From assembly GCA_024699595.1 (NCBI GenBank), contig JAILPG010000164.1:1-17581 (forward strand): a stretch of 17,581 nt of DNA. Direction: 5' to 3'. A program made the position numbers and the translations under genes. This document shows, piece after piece, positions 7,373 to 16,535 of the stretch. Each line of letters starts with the position of its first letter. Within the stretch, counting starts at the first letter, position 1. Under the pieces are notes generated by a model, which worked only from the letters and a program-made list of their open reading frames with translations, was not told the DNA's origin and did no database searches. Source of the DNA: Lachnospiraceae bacterium. Lineage in GTDB: Bacteria > Bacillota_A > Clostridia > Lachnospirales > Lachnospiraceae.

Positions 7373-8656
7373 TCACAGATCGATAAGTATCTCGTTATGA
7401 CCGGGTATCTCCGCATAGCTTACAGAGGTATCCCTGAGATATTTAAAGATCTTTCGCCTGTCAAAGAGATAATACTTCATATCCGAGTATACCTGCTCAT
7501 CACTGCATTTGATGGTTATCGAATACTCTCCGCTGTTATATGCCCTTATAAAGGCCTGTTCCAGCGCATCTTCATCTATTGATGTAAAATACAGACCCTC
7601 CCTGACATAATAGTTGGCATCAACGCTTTCACATTCCGGAATTGGTACGGAGTTTTCGATCTCATGAGTAATCCCTATCTCATCGGTTGTGATGCACAGG
7701 TAATCATAATTGATCTCTGAGGATGTATAGGATCCGTTAACCGCTTCGGGTTCACCGTCCTTATTCACCCGGTTATACGGCGAATCTCCCCAGGTCGGAT
7801 CCACGTGATAATACTGCCCGTCAATCCTTACGAGATCCCACACATGATGCTCGCCTTCCTTAACAGATCCTTCCACAAGAGTACAGAAAATGCCGAGATC
7901 ATTGAGAATATACTGCATTGCCTTGGCATATCCCTGACAGATGCTCCTCTTTTCTGCAAATACACTGACAATGTTCTGGTTGTTGGGAGCACTCTTGTCA
8001 TACTCCGTATTCTTTACTATGTATTCATACACCTTTTTAACCTTAGTGTATTCATCCGCATCATAAGGGATAGTAGCCTCACATTTTTTTACATATTCAT
8101 CTATTACCGGCCCGTAACCCTGTATCTCTTTCTCGTCCATGATATACGTTCCGCTCATTGCGATCTTTTCGGGCACACCGTTTCTTGTATATGTCTTAAT
8201 CGAATAACCCTTCACAAAAAAGAGCTCCGGATGATCCATAAGTACACAGTCAAATGCAAAATCGATAAGATCCGTATCAAGAGTCGGCATATACACCTCG
8301 GTCTTAAACCCGGATATTATCTCATATATGTCATCATAGACACTTCTTTGGTCATCATTACTGAGACATGAGTATGCATATGCATGGACATCGTCTGTTA
8401 TCGTTGAAGGCTCTGCAGGCTTAATGCTGTTATTTTGAAGCACTTCCTCAGATGTGTCGTCGATCTCGACCTGTTCCTGTATCCGGTCCTCATCATCATT
8501 GACGATTATTATCTCATTATCCGGTTCCGAAGGCACGGATGTCACAGTATTACTGTTATTCCCGGCCGGAATATCTTTTATCGGAGGTGCTCCCTGCGAA
8601 CATCCGGCGAGTAATATAGCGGTTGTTATCGTTATCAATAACACTTTAGTCTTCAT
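7373..8656 (-). CDS. Transglutaminase-like lipoprotein of unknown function
   Basis: A 427-residue predicted lipoprotein. Residues 1-19 form a signal peptide ending in the lipobox LLAG-C (Cys19), so it should be anchored to the outer face of the membrane. A low-complexity acidic and Ser/Thr/Pro linker (20-90) follows. The C-terminal half carries a transglutaminase/protease core: RSICQGYAKAMQYIL with Cys240, EHHVWDLVRI with His271 and YYHVDPTWGD with Asp286, in the correct order and spacing for the catalytic triad. Bacterial members of this family include peptidases and cell-wall or surface-acting proteins, but no substrate can be named here. The frame opens earlier (8701) but the ATG at 8654-8656 has AGAGGAAA upstream and starts the signal peptide exactly. 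It follows prfC by 22 bases, so it may be co-transcribed. No clear terminator follows. Confidence 0.85.
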   Translation of the reverse strand: MKTKVLLITITTAILLAGCSQGAPPIKDIPAGNNSNTVTSVPSEPDNEIIIVNDDEDRIQEQVEIDDTSEEVLQNNSIKPAEPSTITDDVHAYAYSCLSNDDQRSVYDDIYEIISGFKTEVYMPTLDTDLIDFAFDCVLMDHPELFFVKGYSIKTYTRNGVPEKIAMSGTYIMDEKEIQGYGPVIDEYVKKCEATIPYDADEYTKVKKVYEYIVKNTEYDKSAPNNQNIVSVFAEKRSICQGYAKAMQYILNDLGIFCTLVEGSVKEGEHHVWDLVRIDGQYYHVDPTWGDSPYNRVNKDGEPEAVNGSYTSSEINYDYLCITTDEIGITHEIENSVPIPECESVDANYYVREGLYFTSIDEDALEQAFIRAYNSGEYSITIKCSDEQVYSDMKYYLFDRRKIFKYLRDTSVSYAEIPGHNEILIDL

Positions 8657-8678
8657 ATTTTTTCCTCTTCTGCTTTGA

Positions 8679-10271
8679 TCAGTTCCTGCTGAACTCGGCA
8701 AGCTTCAATCCCTCATTTCTCTCAAGAGTCATTCCGACACTCCAGCTATTGATGAACAGTAACAAGGGATTTCCTTTAAGATCCTTTATCTTTTTCATGT
8801 CTGAGGTGCCTGTAAGCTTCTCTACGTCCACCTCATCCTTATTCTCTATCCATCTGATGTATTCATACGGAAGATTCTCAAGTATTATCTCGACATTATA
8901 CTCATTTTCCAGCCTGTATTTAAGTACCTCAAACTGAAGAACACCTACAACCCCGACTATTATCTCCTCAAGTCCGGTATTGAATTCCTGAAAGATCTGG
9001 ATCGCACCCTCTAAAGCTATCTGGGTGATCCCTTTCACGAACTGTTTCCTCTTCATCGTATCCACCTGACGGACTCTGGCAAAGTGCTCCGGTGCAAAGG
9101 TCGGGATACCCTCATACCTGAATTCGTCCCCCGGGCTGCACAGTGTATCTCCTATGGCAAATACACCCGGATCAAATACTCCGATAATATCCCCCGCATA
9201 GGCCTCTTCGACCATGTGTCTGTCGGATGCCATCATCTGCTGTGGCTGGGAAAGCTTCATTATCCTGCTTCTCTGTACATGCTTTACTTCCATCGAAGGA
9301 TCATACCTTCCCGAACAGATCCGCATGAATGCCACCCTGTCCCTGTGCGCCTTGTTCATGTTTGCCTGTATCTTAAACACAAAAGCGGAAAACTCTCTTT
9401 CAGCCGGATCTATTATTCCGGTATCAGCCTTTCTTGCAAGCGGAGGAGTTGTCATTTTGAGAAAGTATTTTAAGAATATCTCCACTCCGAAATTGGTTAG
9501 AGCCGATCCGAAGAAAACAGGAGTGAGCTCTCCTTTGGTAACAAGCTCCTGGTCAAAAGGTGCACTTGCTCCGTCAAGAAGATCGGTCTCTTCGCAAAGT
9601 TTCTCCCACGCGTCCTCTCCTATCCTGTCCTTAAGCATGTCATCAGATATGGATATCTCCTCACTGGTTCCTTCCTTTGTCCCCTTCTCGGTATCCGAAT
9701 ACGTGATCACCTTTTTTGTGTTTCTGTCGTATACACCTTTAAAAGATTTACCCGAGCCTATCGGCCAGTTGACCGGACAGGTAGAAATGCCCAGCTCCTT
9801 TTCAATGTCATCAAGCAGGTCAAAGGTATCATTTGCATCCCTGTCAAGCTTGTTGATGAACGTAAAAATGGGGATCTTCCGCATCACACAGACCTTAAAG
9901 AGCTTTCTTGTCTGTGCCTCAACACCTTTACTGGCATCTATCACCATGACTGCAGAATCCGCAGCCATCAGTGTTCTGTATGTATCCTCGGAAAAGTCCT
10001 GATGTCCCGGTGTGTCCAGTATATTGATACAGAAACCGTCATATTCAAACTGAAGTACCGAGCTGGTGACGGATATTCCTCTTTCCTTCTCTATTTCCAT
10101 CCAGTCGGACACGGCATGCCTTGCAGTTGCCTTGCCTTTTACGGAGCCCGCAAGATTTATCGCACCGCCGTAGAGAAGAAACTTTTCCGTAAGAGTTGTC
10201 TTACCGGCATCGGGATGCGATATTATCGCAAATGTCCTTCTTCTGTTTATTTCTTTTTTTATATCTGCCAT
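8679..10271 (-). CDS. prfC: Peptide chain release factor 3
   Basis: A 530-residue translational GTPase that recycles RF1/RF2 from the ribosome after termination. The N-terminal RRTFAIISHPDAGKTT segment holds the P-loop (19-26), and the G domain continues with the switch region KERGISVTSS (62-71), DTPGHQDF (86-93) and NKLD (140-143). The WMEIEKERGISV context and the RF3-specific C-terminal region (LQFEVLKYRLENEYNVE, LPYEYIRWI) separate it from EF-G and TetM-like proteins. Length equals the family norm (about 529). The ATG at 10269-10271 is required by the conserved start, yet no Shine-Dalgarno is visible within 20 bases upstream; the nearest AAAGG is about 30 bases away, on the far side of a small hairpin. 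Confidence 0.95.
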   Translation of the reverse strand: MADIKKEINRRRTFAIISHPDAGKTTLTEKFLLYGGAINLAGSVKGKATARHAVSDWMEIEKERGISVTSSVLQFEYDGFCINILDTPGHQDFSEDTYRTLMAADSAVMVIDASKGVEAQTRKLFKVCVMRKIPIFTFINKLDRDANDTFDLLDDIEKELGISTCPVNWPIGSGKSFKGVYDRNTKKVITYSDTEKGTKEGTSEEISISDDMLKDRIGEDAWEKLCEETDLLDGASAPFDQELVTKGELTPVFFGSALTNFGVEIFLKYFLKMTTPPLARKADTGIIDPAEREFSAFVFKIQANMNKAHRDRVAFMRICSGRYDPSMEVKHVQRSRIMKLSQPQQMMASDRHMVEEAYAGDIIGVFDPGVFAIGDTLCSPGDEFRYEGIPTFAPEHFARVRQVDTMKRKQFVKGITQIALEGAIQIFQEFNTGLEEIIVGVVGVLQFEVLKYRLENEYNVEIILENLPYEYIRWIENKDEVDVEKLTGTSDMKKIKDLKGNPLLLFINSWSVGMTLERNEGLKLAEFSRN

Positions 10272-10365: not shown

Positions 10366-11529
10366 TCATGAAAGAAGGGAAGAGCCGTCAGTCTTATTAT
10401 CTATCTCAAGTATATCAAGCACCGTGGCTGCGATATCGGCAAAGGTGCTCCTGGTACCGTAGTTCTTTGGCTCTATATGCTTTCCGTATATAAGATACGG
10501 CGTGTACTCCCTCGAATGGTCCGTCGAAACCGTAAATCCCGGATCGCATCCGTGATCTGCGGTTATCATCAGGACATCGTCATCTCTCATCAGATCGAAT
10601 ATCTCAGGCAGCCTGTCATCAAAATATGCAACAGCCTTTGCGTATCCGTCCACATCATTTCTGTGTCCGTAGAGCATATCATAATCCACAAGGTTTACAA
10701 AAAGGATTCCGTTAAAATCCTTCTTCATATATTCAATTGTCCTGTCTATTCCTTCTGCGTTATTCTTCGTGTATACATATTCTGTGATACCCACGCCCGC
10801 AAAGATGTCATTTATCTTTCCAACACCTATGGAATCCAGGCCTGCATTTTTTATATGATCAAGCATCGTCTCTTTTGGAGGTAACAGCGAGAAATCATGC
10901 CTGTTTGCGGTTCTTGTATAATTTCCCGAAGTTCCGATAAAAGGTCTTGCTATCACCCTGCCCACACCGTGCTTTCCGGTCAGGATCTTTCTTGCGATCC
11001 TGCAGTATTCATACAGTGTTTCAACAGGAACGACCTCTTCATGAGCAGCTATCTGAAATACCGAATCTGCTGATGTATAGACGATCAGGTCACCGGTCCT
11101 TACATGCTCATCACCGAATTCGTTGATCACAACAGTACCCGAATACGGCTTGTTGCACAGAACTCCTCTTTTCGTCTGTTTCTTGAACTCATCCAGTACC
11201 TCGTCCGGAAATCCGTCCGGATAAACAGGCAATGCTCTCTCAGATATGACTCCTGCAATTTCCCAGTGTCCGATCGTTGTATCCTTGCCTGCCGATGCCT
11301 CACGCATCCTTGCATATGCACCTGAGGTATTATCAATCGACGGCGCATAATCCACCCCGTCTATATTGAAAAGCCCGAGCTTTCCGAGATTATCCGCTTT
11401 GAAATAACTGCTTGAATAACATGACCTTAAGGTATTGGACCCGACATCGCCGAATTTGTCGGCATCAGGAGCTTCTCCTATTCCAAAGCTGTCCATAACT
11501 ATGAGTATAACTCTCTTATCTGATCTCAT
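10366..11529 (-). CDS. deoB: Phosphopentomutase
   Basis: A 387-residue alkaline-phosphatase-superfamily enzyme that interconverts ribose/deoxyribose 1- and 5-phosphate, linking nucleoside breakdown to central metabolism. Metal ligands and active-site motifs are in place: VMDSFGIGEAPDA (11-23, Asp13), GKDTTIGHWEIAG (81-93) where Thr84 aligns with the phosphorylated threonine of the Bacillus cereus enzyme, NLVDYDMLYGHR, TADHGCDP and STDHSREYTP. Length is normal. The ATG at 11527-11529 has GGAGGG four bases upstream. No nucleoside phosphorylase or deaminase gene is adjacent within the window; prfC follows after 94 bases with no obvious terminator. The upstream gap carries candidate promoters, a palindrome and DnaA boxes, so its expression may be tied to them. 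Confidence 0.96.
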   Translation of the reverse strand: MRSDKRVILIVMDSFGIGEAPDADKFGDVGSNTLRSCYSSSYFKADNLGKLGLFNIDGVDYAPSIDNTSGAYARMREASAGKDTTIGHWEIAGVISERALPVYPDGFPDEVLDEFKKQTKRGVLCNKPYSGTVVINEFGDEHVRTGDLIVYTSADSVFQIAAHEEVVPVETLYEYCRIARKILTGKHGVGRVIARPFIGTSGNYTRTANRHDFSLLPPKETMLDHIKNAGLDSIGVGKINDIFAGVGITEYVYTKNNAEGIDRTIEYMKKDFNGILFVNLVDYDMLYGHRNDVDGYAKAVAYFDDRLPEIFDLMRDDDVLMITADHGCDPGFTVSTDHSREYTPYLIYGKHIEPKNYGTRSTFADIAATVLDILEIDNKTDGSSLLS

Positions 11530-11546
11530 TCTTCCCTCCGCAATAA

Positions 11547-11565
11547 CCCGTATGCTTTATACGGG
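11547..11565 (-). repeat. Palindrome at the predicted deoB transcription start
   Basis: CCCGTAT and ATACGGG form a perfect 7-bp inverted repeat around 5 bases. It begins where transcription from the nearest promoter is predicted to start and ends 18 bases before the start codon, just upstream of the GGAGGG. It may be an operator or a 5' stem-loop that affects translation or stability. No T-run follows, so it is not a terminator. Confidence 0.5.
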
Positions 11566-11571
11566 ACATAC

Positions 11572-11600
11572 CTTATACAGGCTATAAGATTCTATCACAA
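11572..11600 (-). promoter_or_regulatory. Candidate deoB promoter (proximal)
   Basis: TTGTGA at 11595-11600 and TATAAG at 11572-11577, read on the minus strand, are separated by exactly 17 bases. Matches to the sigma-A consensus are 4 of 6 and 5 of 6. The start would be near 11565, about 36 bases before the deoB ATG. Confidence 0.5.
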
Positions 11601-11712
11601 ATATCCTATTTATTCCACAAAACATCCTTTTTTCTCTGTTTCAGCGGTTTCCTAACGATATCTTTTTTATCGCCCCGATGGCAGGTCACATGTAATTTAT
11701 TGCTTGTATAGA

Positions 11713-11742
11713 TTTATAACACATAACTCGGACAGTTGTCAG
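11713..11742 (-). promoter_or_regulatory. Candidate deoB promoter (distal)
   Basis: CTGACA (11737-11742) and TATAAA (11713-11718) on the minus strand, each 5 of 6 to consensus, 18 bases apart, with TGT before the -10 giving the extended form. It would start near 11706 and give a leader of roughly 175 bases. The -35 overlaps an 11-base dyad TTGTC-a-GACAA (11736-11746), which could be an operator. Confidence 0.45.
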
Positions 11743-11793
11743 ACAAATCATTTCTTTTCATGGTTCAAAGCAGGCAAAAAGATGTATACAAGC

Positions 11794-11802
11794 TTTTCCA
11801 CA
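11794..11802 (+). promoter_or_regulatory. Probable DnaA box (TTTTCCACA)
   Basis: Fits the relaxed consensus TTWTNCACA, with one difference from the strict 9-mer. On its own it could be chance, but it lies 41 bases from two perfect boxes in the same orientation. Confidence 0.5.
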
Positions 11803-11842
11803 TTTTTCTGATTTTTCATAATCAAAACTGATGTGATTCCTC

Positions 11843-11860
11843 TTATCCACATTATCCACA
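11843..11860 (+). promoter_or_regulatory. Two directly abutting perfect DnaA boxes
   Basis: TTATCCACA occurs twice with no base between copies (11843-11851 and 11852-11860). This is the exact high-affinity DnaA 9-mer. Both read toward the AT-rich core at 11905-11935. Under equal base frequencies fewer than 0.01 perfect 9-mers would be expected in a 574-base gap counting both strands; three are present. Confidence 0.8.
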
Positions 11861-11946
11861 GTTTTAATCCCAGTATTTATCGGCGTTTTGGGACATCGCG
11901 CATCGATCATCATTAATTTAAATCATGATATAATACCGGGACCCCC

Positions 11947-11955
11947 TGTGGATAA
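11947..11955 (-). promoter_or_regulatory. Perfect DnaA box facing the tandem pair
   Basis: TGTGGATAA on the plus strand is a perfect 9-mer on the minus strand. Reading on from the box, the minus strand has a GC-rich stretch (about 11936-11946) and then the AT-rich core, so this box and the tandem pair point inward at the same core. Confidence 0.75.
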
Positions 11956-12032
11956 CCTTCGAAAAAAGTGGTTTTATGTCGCATGTATTTTATAAACAGG
12001 TCCAATAAAAATCTTGCGTAAAAATAATAAAA

Positions 12033-12071
12033 TGAAAAAAATACACCGGTTTTTTATGTACCGGTGTATTT
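12033..12071 (-). terminator. Intrinsic terminator of pnp
   Basis: On the minus strand AAATACACCGGT pairs perfectly with ACCGGTGTATTT (12039-12050 with 12060-12071) around a 9-base loop, and the stem runs straight into a stretch of seven T. It lies 32 bases after the pnp stop. The plus-strand reading also has a short T-rich tail, so it may work weakly in both directions. Confidence 0.92.
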
Positions 12072-12103
12072 CTTGATGCCGTTTTTTCGCGGTCCTGGTC
12101 TTA

Positions 12104-14191
12104 TTACCTGGCGTCTTTTATCGAGAACGATATCCTTCCCATCTTGTCCTTTCCGAGGCACTTAACCGTAACCTCATCGCCAAGCGTAAGCACATCTTCC
12201 ACATGATTGATCCTCTCTTTTGCGATCTTTGAGATATGAACCATTCCTTCCTTGCCGGGAGCAAACTCAATAAATGCTCCGAACTCCTTGATGCTTACCA
12301 CCTTGCCTTTATAGATCTGGCCTTCCTCAAACTCGGTCGTGATTATCTTTATGAGTTCAACAGCCTTATCCATCATTGCAGGATCTGTTCCGCAGACAGA
12401 TACATTTCCGTCATCGGTGATATCGATCTTGACACCGGTCTGTTCGATAATGGCATTGATAGTTTTTCCTCTCTGTCCTACAACATCACCGATCTTCTCA
12501 GGATCGATCTTCATCTGAATGATCTTGGGTGCATATTCACTTACTGTCTTTCTGGGCTCAGCGATAGCCGGCTTCATACAGGTATCCATGATAAAGAGCC
12601 TTGCCTCACGGCATCTTGCTATGGCACCTTCTACCATGGGCCTTGTAAGACCATGGATCTTGATATCCATCTGGATCGCGGTTATTCCGTCAGTCGTACC
12701 TGTAACCTTGAAATCCATGTCTCCGAAGAAATCCTCAAGACCCTGGATATCGGTTAACAGTACATAATCATCATCGGTATCTCCTGTTACCAGACCACAG
12801 GATATTCCTGCAACCATCTTCTTTATCGGTACGCCGGCTGCCATAAGTGACATACATGAAGCACAGGTGGAAGCCATTGAAGTGGAACCGTTTGACTCAA
12901 AAGTCTCTGATACGCATCTTATCGCATAAGGGAACTCTTCCTCTGAAGGAAGTACGGGTATGAGTGCTCTCTCTGCGAGCGCTCCATGACCGATCTCACG
13001 TCTTCCCGGACCTCTTGAAGGCTTGGTCTCGCCTACGGAATATGACGGGAAATTATAATGATGCATGTATCTCTTTGCAACTTCATTGGAATCAAGACCA
13101 TCGATCTTCTGCATCTCAGAAAGAGGAGCAAGTGTACAGATATCGCAGATCTGTGTCTGTCCTCTTGTGAACATTGAGGATCCGTGTACTCTCGGTATTA
13201 TGTCAACCTCTGCAGCAAGCGGTCTTATCTGGGTGATCTCCCTGCCGTCCGGTCTCTTGTGATCCTTTAAGATCATCTTTCTGACTGTCTTTTTCTCATA
13301 CTGATATACGGCCTCGCCCAGTATTGAAAGCCATTCCTCATTATCAGCGAAAGCTTCTTCAAGCCTTGCAGTTATCTTTCCGATATTCTCTTCCCTGACC
13401 ATCTTGTCATCGGTGAATACCGCATTCTCCATCTCTTCCTGGGGCACGAGTCTCTTCATCTCGGCAAACATTTCCTCAGGAACGGCACAGCTAGTATATT
13501 CGTGTTTTTTCTTTCCGACCTCATCAACGATCTTGTTGATGAAAGCGATGATCTCCTGATTGATCTGGTGAGCCATGTAGATAGCCTCGATCATCTTTGC
13601 CTCGGGGATCTCATTTGCTCCTGCTTCGATCATTATTACTTTTTCGCTGGTTGATGCAACGGTAAGATTAAGGTCTCCGACCTTCCACTGCTCCTGACCG
13701 GGATTTACTATCAGTTCCCCGTTTATCATTCCGATCTGAGTCGTAGCACAGGGGCCGCAGAAAGGTATATCGGAAATACTGGTTGCTATGGCAGATCCAA
13801 GCATAGCCAGAAGCTCAGGTCTGCAGTCGGGATCAACCGAAAGTACCAGATTGTTCAGTGTGCAGTCATTTCTGTAGTCCTTGGGAAAGAGAGGACGCAT
13901 GGGTCTGTCAATTACACGTGATGTAAGAATGGCATTTTCTGATGCTTTTCCTTCTCTCTTATTGAATCCTCCCGGGATCTTTCCTACGGCATACATCTTC
14001 TCTTCATACTCAACGCTTAAAGGGAAGAAATCTATACCCTCTCTCGGCTTCTCCGATGCCGTAGCGGTACTTAATACCGTTGTGTCTCCATAGTGCATTA
14101 AAGCAGCACCGTTAGCCTGTTTAGCCACACGTCCCACATCTACGGTAAGCGTACGGCCGCCAAGCTCCATTGAATAACTCTTGTAGCTCAT
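12104..14191 (-). CDS. pnp: Polyribonucleotide nucleotidyltransferase (PNPase)
   Basis: A 695-residue 3'-to-5' phosphorolytic exoribonuclease, a trimeric core enzyme of mRNA decay. Domains in order: first RNase PH fold (about 1-225, with KREGKASENAILTSRVIDRP), an all-helical linker, second RNase PH fold (about 310-545) with the phosphate site SNGSTSMAST and the metal/catalytic stretch GDTDDDYVLLTDIQGLEDFF followed by GDMDFKVTGT, a KH domain with VVGQRGKTINAII (GxxG loop), and a C-terminal S1 domain starting GQIYKGKVVSIKEFGAFIEF. Length is normal. Strong AAAGGAAAGGAG precedes the ATG. It follows rpsO, as in most bacteria. A terminator after rpsO and a long structured leader suggest control at the RNA level, as known for E. 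coli pnp. Confidence 0.97.
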   Translation of the reverse strand: MSYKSYSMELGGRTLTVDVGRVAKQANGAALMHYGDTTVLSTATASEKPREGIDFFPLSVEYEEKMYAVGKIPGGFNKREGKASENAILTSRVIDRPMRPLFPKDYRNDCTLNNLVLSVDPDCRPELLAMLGSAIATSISDIPFCGPCATTQIGMINGELIVNPGQEQWKVGDLNLTVASTSEKVIMIEAGANEIPEAKMIEAIYMAHQINQEIIAFINKIVDEVGKKKHEYTSCAVPEEMFAEMKRLVPQEEMENAVFTDDKMVREENIGKITARLEEAFADNEEWLSILGEAVYQYEKKTVRKMILKDHKRPDGREITQIRPLAAEVDIIPRVHGSSMFTRGQTQICDICTLAPLSEMQKIDGLDSNEVAKRYMHHYNFPSYSVGETKPSRGPGRREIGHGALAERALIPVLPSEEEFPYAIRCVSETFESNGSTSMASTCASCMSLMAAGVPIKKMVAGISCGLVTGDTDDDYVLLTDIQGLEDFFGDMDFKVTGTTDGITAIQMDIKIHGLTRPMVEGAIARCREARLFIMDTCMKPAIAEPRKTVSEYAPKIIQMKIDPEKIGDVVGQRGKTINAIIEQTGVKIDITDDGNVSVCGTDPAMMDKAVELIKIITTEFEEGQIYKGKVVSIKEFGAFIEFAPGKEGMVHISKIAKERINHVEDVLTLGDEVTVKCLGKDKMGRISFSIKDAR

Positions 14192-14873: not shown

Positions 14874-16535
14874 CTCCATGATCCTGTCAGCCCTCTTTGC
14901 GGCACCCTTTTCGGCATCTAACGTAGCAAAGGCAATATTGATGGAGTGATCCGCAACCCTTTCAAGTCCGCTGACTATATCCGAGAACAGCATTCCAGCC
15001 TCGGGAGAACACTCTGCCGCAGTCAGCCTGTCTATGTGGGCCTGCTGCAGCTCTCTTTCCTTCTCATCAACAGCATCCTCAAGATGGATAATATCCTCAA
15101 GATGTTCTTCATTATTATTTGCAAACATATCTATCGAATATCTTATCAGCGTATTTACCATATCAAGCATGCTGCCGAGCTCACGCTGCGCTTCCTTTGT
15201 GAAGGAGAGGTTCTTTTCCTTTCTCACGACTGCTGCATCGGCCACGTTTTCGGCATGGTCTCCTATCCTTTCGATATCATTTACGACATGGAAGAGCGAT
15301 CCTATGAGATTTGCATCATCAACAGGCAGATCGGTCTGGGATATCTTTACCAGATAATCCGTAATGGAATGATTCAGGAAATTGATGTTCTGCTCGGTCT
15401 CATACACGAGATCTATATCTTCCTGATCCAGAGTGATAAGTGCGTTCATGGCTCTGTTTAAATTCTCGCTTGCAAGCAGAGCCATTCTCTCAAGCTCCTT
15501 GGTAGCTTCTATAACGGCTGTAGCAGGTGAGAAAATGTTGTTTCCGCCGATGTATTTTAACTTCATATTCTCTCTGTAACCGATCTTCTGATCCTCTCCG
15601 CGCACGAACAGGTACGTCATCTTTACGAGCAGCTTGGAAAACGGCAGGAACATGATCACCTGAAGGATCTTGAATATGGTATGCGCATTTGCGACCTGTC
15701 TTCCGATATTGTCTCCTGACACGATCCTTAAGGAATCGATCACCTGTCCCATAAAAAGCTTTAGGATAACATATATCACGAGGGATCCCAACACATTGAA
15801 CAAAAGATGTATGAGTGCGGCTCTCTTTGCGTTCTTTTTACCTGCAAGCGAAGCAAGCATCGCACTGCAGCAGGCTCCAATATTGCACCCGAGTATCATA
15901 TACAGCGATATCGGCAATCCCAAAAGCCCCTGATTTGCCATTAACAGTATGATACTGACGGTAACGGATGACGACTGGATGATACCGGTTATAAGAGTTC
16001 CTATGATAATGGCCAGTGCCGGGGATGTAAGAGTTGCAAAAAAGGCCGGAACGGCCGGAATGTCCTTAAAGCTGTTCATCGCCTCGGACATTATCGACAG
16101 ACCCATGAACAATACACCAAATCCGGTAAGTATCTCACCGGCTTTGTTGATCATGGATTTCTTGATGAAATAAAGCATTATCACTCCGAGAAACACGAAA
16201 ACCGGAGCGTACTGTGAAAGGTTGAAGGAAACAAGCTGTGAAGTGACCGTTGTACCGATATTGGCACCAAGTATTACTCCCACGGCCTGATACAGGTTCA
16301 TGATGCCGGAGTTTACAAAGGTTACCACCATTACGGTACAGGCACTTGAGGACTGGATGATACCGGTAAACACGATACCGACTAACATTCCCGTATATTT
16401 GTTTGTGGTAAATATCTCGAGTATCTTTCTCAGCTTGGCTCCAGCTGCCTTTTCGATGCCTGAGCTCATAAGGTTCATGCCGAACAGAAAGAGACCAAGA
16501 CCTCCGAACAACGTGATAAAAATGGTCGACGCCAT
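14868..16535 (-). CDS. Na+/phosphate cotransporter family protein with PhoU-like C-terminal domain
   Basis: A 555-residue membrane protein. The first ~330 residues hold about nine hydrophobic segments and the two inverted-repeat signatures of the Na/Pi (PNaS) family: GIIQSSSACTV with QSSS at 61-64 and GIIQSSSVTVS with QSSS at 187-190, each followed by a glycine-rich NIG motif (GANIGTT, 90-96; GCNIGAC, 216-222). Residues ~340-545 are soluble and helical with PhoU-type motifs (FHVVNDIERIGDHAENVAD and SDIVSGLERVADHSINIA), giving two half-PhoU repeats. It probably moves phosphate with sodium, or exports it when cytoplasmic phosphate is high; direction cannot be told from sequence. AAAGGAGAAG precedes the ATG, 12 bases after ribF, so it is co-transcribed with truB-ribF. 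Confidence 0.92.
   Translation of the reverse strand: MASTIFITLFGGLGLFLFGMNLMSSGIEKAAGAKLRKILEIFTTNKYTGMLVGIVFTGIIQSSSACTVMVVTFVNSGIMNLYQAVGVILGANIGTTVTSQLVSFNLSQYAPVFVFLGVIMLYFIKKSMINKAGEILTGFGVLFMGLSIMSEAMNSFKDIPAVPAFFATLTSPALAIIIGTLITGIIQSSSVTVSIILLMANQGLLGLPISLYMILGCNIGACCSAMLASLAGKKNAKRAALIHLLFNVLGSLVIYVILKLFMGQVIDSLRIVSGDNIGRQVANAHTIFKILQVIMFLPFSKLLVKMTYLFVRGEDQKIGYRENMKLKYIGGNNIFSPATAVIEATKELERMALLASENLNRAMNALITLDQEDIDLVYETEQNINFLNHSITDYLVKISQTDLPVDDANLIGSLFHVVNDIERIGDHAENVADAAVVRKEKNLSFTKEAQRELGSMLDMVNTLIRYSIDMFANNNEEHLEDIIHLEDAVDEKERELQQAHIDRLTAAECSPEAGMLFSDIVSGLERVADHSINIAFATLDAEKGAAKRADRIMEA

Follow-up and report, generated by a model that had tools for sequence, protein, structure and literature searches.

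Several DnaA boxes gathered outside oriC are known from Escherichia coli, in which the non-coding sites datA, DARS1 and DARS2 combine such boxes with sites for partner proteins. Both the boxes and the spacers of datA and DARS are described as conserved, and the spacing matters for datA (PMC4585315). Bacillus subtilis, from which datA and DARS are absent according to a review (PMC13220808), carries six DnaA-box clusters (DBCs) outside oriC, and removal of all six leads to early initiation (PMC5295017, PMC13220808, citing Okumura et al. 2012). Reviews of 2017 and 2026 report a strong effect only once all six have been removed (PMC5295017, PMC13220808). The oriC of C. difficile has clusters of TTWTNCACA-type boxes, flanks dnaA and contains a DnaA-trio as well as an unwinding region (PMC7561715).

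We analysed a stretch of 17,581 nucleotides from a Lachnospiraceae bacterium (the window), in which the genes pnp and deoB are separated by a gap of 574 bases (11530-12103; Table 1). The original prediction, made from the letters of the sequence, had placed in this gap three perfect DnaA boxes, two of them abutting and one facing them, together with one relaxed box within 162 bases (11794-11955), and all four were found. In design, datA and DARS are nearest to this deoB module, whose boxes and spacing are conserved as well and whose companion motifs stand at set places. A difference lies in the partners, which are IHF and Fis in E. coli, whereas the putative partner sites of the deoB module are TTATGTAAA and a palindrome. 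The DBCs of B. subtilis, a member of the same phylum, likewise hold several boxes outside oriC, and the deoB module lies neither at dnaA nor at a switch of the GC skew. Unlike these clusters, the module combines a spacing that is rigid across species with two further fixed motifs, a rigidity not reported for DBCs in the review passages considered. Clostridial origins contain similar box clusters, but the module sits at deoB without a skew switch. Among titles and abstract openings of open-access literature on DnaA with deoB, DnaA boxes in Lachnospiraceae, conserved spacing and extra-oriC clusters, the deoB site is undescribed; the Bacillus gene name drm was covered in one paper only.

Table 1. 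Features of the pnp-deoB region in the window
Feature	Position	Strand	Remarks
pnp, polyribonucleotide nucleotidyltransferase	12104..14191	(-)	TIGR03591 above cut-off; upstream neighbour
Inverted repeat AATACACCGGT / ACCGGTGTATT	12040..12070		Between pnp and module; read from the sequence
Outer DnaA box, pnp side	11947..11955	(-)	Perfect TTATCCACA; faces the other three boxes
AT tract (11909-11935) and GC run (11936-11946)	11909..11946		No shared counterpart in relatives
Second abutting middle box	11852..11860	(+)	Perfect TTATCCACA
Middle DnaA box	11843..11851	(+)	Perfect TTATCCACA; abuts the box at 11852-11860
Outer DnaA box, deoB side	11794..11802	(+)	TTTTCCACA, one mismatch
Palindrome TTGTCAGACAA	11736..11746	none	Perfect
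deoB, phosphopentomutase	10366..11529	(-)	TIGR01696 and NF003766 above cut-off; downstream of module

In simulated windows, perfect boxes averaged 0.17 at Markov order 1 and 0.27 at order 3, and two perfect boxes within 113 bp occurred in 0 of 600 windows at either order. Boxes with at most one mismatch, perfect ones included, number 10 in the window against 5.3 expected, a count reached in 6 of 200 shuffles; taken alone, one-mismatch boxes are thus mildly in excess. An AT-rich core between the boxes, which had also been proposed, was found in the 27 bases of the AT tract (11% GC) and nowhere else. The between-box stretch as a whole (11861-11946) is not AT-rich, since its GC content of 40.7% compares with 44.7% in the window and 35.5% in the whole gap. 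Adjoining the tract, the GC run CCGGGACCCCC has a GC content of 91% over 11 bases. A single AT-rich core does not emerge from the average over 34 aligned copies of the module (see below), and the suggested unwinding layout of box, GC cluster and AT-rich DNA, likewise absent from this average, is particular to the window. The inverted repeat on the pnp side is likely the terminator of pnp; it does not appear in the output of our hairpin scan, for which the loop limit was 8. A promoter scan found 2 promoter-like sites in the gap against 2.5 expected, and a plasmid collection contained no match to the gap. Elsewhere in the window, positions 7373-8701 encode a lipoprotein-like protein, whose transglutaminase-related match of 90.9 bits lies far below the family cut-off of 450.

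Conservation and geometry of the module

A scan of genome contigs carrying deoB yielded 40 loci, mostly from MAGs. The nearest of these, L001, has a deoB 86% identical to that of the window, and from this identity we infer that the window belongs to the genus of G001, its nearest relative. Boxes are present in L001-L004 and L006. Outside the genus, a facing pair 150-162 bp apart and at most 800 bp upstream of deoB was found in 0 of 35 loci, four of which (L013, L018, L033 and L036) have fewer than 460 bases upstream of deoB. L005, L007, L010 and L034 have no facing pair though pnp lies on the same contig, and in L026, likewise not of the genus, deoB is preceded by three loose boxes in a different geometry. 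Family-wide, facing perfect boxes matched in 27 of 299 genomes, and the match in G006 was recognised as the deoB site.

Within the genus of G001, 37 genomes, which are fragmented and whose bins may be mixed, were searched. A deoB match was obtained in 35 and a readable deoB start in 34, the remainder being G018 and G019 (no match) and G021 (gene end only). In 31 of the 34 genomes, two boxes face each other at a distance of 150-162 bp, neither with more than one mismatch. When one outer box was allowed two mismatches, L041 (G001) and L057 (G025) were added, bringing the count to 33 of 34, so that conservation in relatives, which the original prediction had named as a check, is high under either setting. 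The automatic scan, which covered 36 loci (the window, the 34 genomes and a second copy in G024), recovered the facing pair in 33 when each box was allowed a single mismatch. L058 (G030), without facing boxes, is the only member of the genus that lacks the module. At this locus a small gene lies directly upstream of deoB.

For the alignment we used 34 copies, namely the 30 loci L041-L070 without L054, a near copy of L053, and without the module-free L058, together with L107, L111, L112, L113, L119 and the window. Offsets of the right box and distances between the outer boxes were entered by hand, and the automatic scans agree with them except for L041 and L057, where an outer box has two mismatches. 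Counted from the start of the deoB-side outer box (position 0), the outer boxes are 153-159 bp apart in all copies and 155 bp apart in 23 of them. By comparison, anything between 101 and 440 bp separates the deoB-side outer box from the deoB start, and pairwise identity between copies of the module has a median of 43%. The deoB-side outer box is perfect in 30 of the 34 copies, and where the boxes differ, they mostly remain close to the consensus (TTTTCCACA, ATATCCACA and TTATCAACA). A middle box stands at -47 to -49 in 16 copies, the window included, and a counterpart of the second abutting box, with at most one mismatch, at -56 or -58 in three.

Two further motifs accompany the boxes. The first, TTATGTAAA, occurs exactly in 30 of the 34 copies against 0.9 expected and is absent from the window, L041, L042 and L056. 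In 14 copies without the middle box it stands at -49 on the strand of that box; other places are -105/-106 (10 copies), near -205 (three) and -19 (three). The second, the palindrome TTGTCWGACAA, was counted 49 times with at most two mismatches (7.6 expected); 23 copies carry it at -253 to -249, on the pnp side, and 22 carry it at +56 to +58. The window has only the deoB-side palindrome, and the window, L041 and L042 are without both TTATGTAAA and the pnp-side palindrome. As a global operator the palindrome was rejected, since the 37 genomes contain ten exact copies of the 13-mer ATTGTCWGACAAT, six of them in the deoB module, against nine in a reversed control. TTATGTAAA coincides with a segment of the XerD arm in the dif site of B. 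subtilis; a difference is that the deoB module has no visible XerC arm at a set distance. The idea that TTATGTAAA marks dif was rejected, as dif-like hits in six genomes were no more numerous than in the reversed control. By eye, we noted two candidate dif-like sites with TTATGTAAACT.

Other DnaA-box clusters in the genus

Perfect boxes are in clear excess in G001-G005 (25-65 per genome against 7-19 in the reversed control) and in weak excess in G006 (30 against 19). Dense clusters were few, which answers the concern that equally dense ones might be common: at least two perfect boxes within 300 bp occur at two places in G006 (deoB and a helicase-loader-type locus) and at four in G001, with its 65 perfect boxes (the same two and two dnaA loci). 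The helicase-loader-type locus encodes a Mur ligase that by eye resembles MurC, a replication initiation protein of the DnaB_2 family and an ATPase of the IstB/DnaA type, and the boxes lie between the Mur ligase gene and the DnaB_2-family operon (loci L071, L072, L073 and L136-L165). Of 30 such loci, 29 have two or more boxes, each with no more than one mismatch, within 350 bp, and TTATGTAAA occurs in 8 of 30 of these box clusters. The conserved cluster suggests that DnaA may control the helicase-loader genes. In the G030 cluster (L154), we observed five boxes together with TTATGTAAA. Upstream of dnaA in L178-L181, TTATGTAAA is found 12 bases from a box.

As a side observation, contig C80 of G001 (152.9 kb; L074 and L075) carries two dnaA-dnaN-recF sets ~50 kb apart, whose DnaA proteins are 53% identical. 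The rpmH-linked DnaA clusters with those of the genus, and the other falls on a long branch together with an additional DnaA from G010. The doubled set may stem from another replicon, from a transfer or from chimeric assembly.

Replication control or control of deoB

The spacing was kept across species while the intervening DNA changed, which makes a DnaA control site, and not an origin, the probable identity. The original prediction had named a titration or replication-timing site, or DnaA control of deoB, as the likely kinds, and our data support these as a set of candidates. Our main reading, to which we give a probability of about one half, is that the deoB site is an extra-oriC DnaA module serving replication control. 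Here, DnaA would bind the two facing outer boxes and, in the subclade of the window, also one or two middle boxes, while partner proteins, at fixed distances, would occupy TTATGTAAA and the palindrome. The module would measure ~155 bp, or ~310 bp with the flanking palindromes in species having both, and the outcome would be a single, defined DnaA complex that is looped or bent. Such a complex may hold DnaA or alter its activity and thereby tune the timing of initiation, in a working mode like that of datA/DARS in E. coli or of the DBCs in B. subtilis.

Speaking for replication control, the near-fixed outer spacing contrasts with the loose distance to deoB and the low sequence identity, and TTATGTAAA is common to the module, the helicase-loader-type clusters and the region upstream of dnaA. 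As the module is rigid inside and loose outside and shares its motifs with replication loci, an autonomous DnaA complex appears plausible, and the distance to deoB, like by eye that to the likely deoB promoter, varies, as suits such an autonomous site. On the other side stand the finding of the module in one genus only, the weak perfect-box excess in G006, the lack of the module in G030, and the copies in the window, L041 and L042, in which TTATGTAAA and the pnp-side palindrome are missing.

Tentatively, and as the main rival to this reading, DnaA might control the transcription of deoB. A rigid complex upstream of the promoter would then activate or repress deoB in step with the cell cycle and tie the supply of (deoxy)ribose phosphate to replication, and this role may coexist with that of an extra-oriC module. 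The gene order bears on this possibility. In G011, G025 and G036, 3-5.5 kb separate pnp from deoB, and in all three the module adjoins deoB. The insert holds an FtsX-type permease and an ABC ATPase in G011 and includes a BRO-N protein in G036. Within 1.5 kb after pnp, these genomes have no facing pair and a single one-mismatch box, in G011. In G031 an extra small gene separates pnp from the module, not the module from deoB; apparently the same small gene is present in G030, but there the module is gone. The module thus stays with deoB in four genomes with changed gene order, which amount to about three independent events because G011 and G025 have the upstream gene end in common, too few to exclude chance. 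Its place beside deoB wherever pnp lies apart suits control of deoB better than an extra-oriC module, and the murC-dnaD-type box cluster is likewise located upstream of a replication operon. Against control of deoB, the boxes keep no set distance from the gene. Titles and abstract openings of the open-access literature on DnaA and deoB describe no such control.

Remaining alternatives and implications

It is improbable that some protein different from DnaA occupies the boxes, or that they belong to an enhancer of deoB without a role for DnaA. The palindrome and TTATGTAAA do point to further proteins, and more than half of the occurrences of the 13-mer ATTGTCWGACAAT lie in the deoB module. However, the sequence is that of the perfect DnaA box, the same 9-mer clusters beside dnaA and the helicase-loader-type operon, and Pfam shows the DNA-binding domain of the DnaA proteins to be normal.

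We rank very low the notion that a structured RNA uses the inverted boxes as the arms of a stem, or that they belong to a coding sequence. Facing boxes are inherently complementary, and RNAalifold pairs them in two subclades; the z-scores of -11 to -17 against column shuffles cannot separate RNA from paired DNA sites, because column shuffling destroys any inverted repeat. Over all 34 copies RNAalifold gave no structure, an uninformative outcome, and the whole window has no Rfam match at the gathering score. An outer box is changed in 21 of the 34 copies and the matching opposite change is found in 0 of these 21, which argues for DNA sites and not RNA arms. As to coding, the longest stop-free run in five modules covers 76 of ~115 codons, and the spacings vary by 1-2 bases.

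A replication origin, main or secondary, has next to no likelihood: the boxes do stand beside a short GC run and an AT tract, but these are not conserved over the 34 copies, the GC skew is negative on both sides without a switch at the site, the named genes around the gap all run in one direction, and clusters of boxes stand next to dnaA in the genus, in agreement with the original prediction that this is not a main origin. Positive GC skew is confined to two bins (15751-16250 and 16001-16500) at a distance of 4 kb, inside one gene. A DnaA-trio scan gave 0 hits in the 34 modules and also 0 at 17 dnaA-region loci, and is thus without a positive control.

A more far-reaching possibility, which we regard as rather doubtful, is that the site represents an independently arisen counterpart of datA/DARS in Bacillota. 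At deoB, a dedicated protein recognising the palindrome and a partner, which may be XerD, would join DnaA in a rigid switch of several proteins. The partner would read TTATGTAAA at three kinds of place, namely deoB, the helicase-loader-type operon and dnaA, so that one set of sites would serve the control of initiation, the processing of chromosome ends and nucleotide metabolism alike. In a Bacillota lineage other than that of B. subtilis, a spacing kept within a few bases despite the drift in sequence would mean selection on one defined extra-oriC DnaA complex. Since the module is short, it can be cloned, and titration, nucleotide switching and promoter control would be directly separable.
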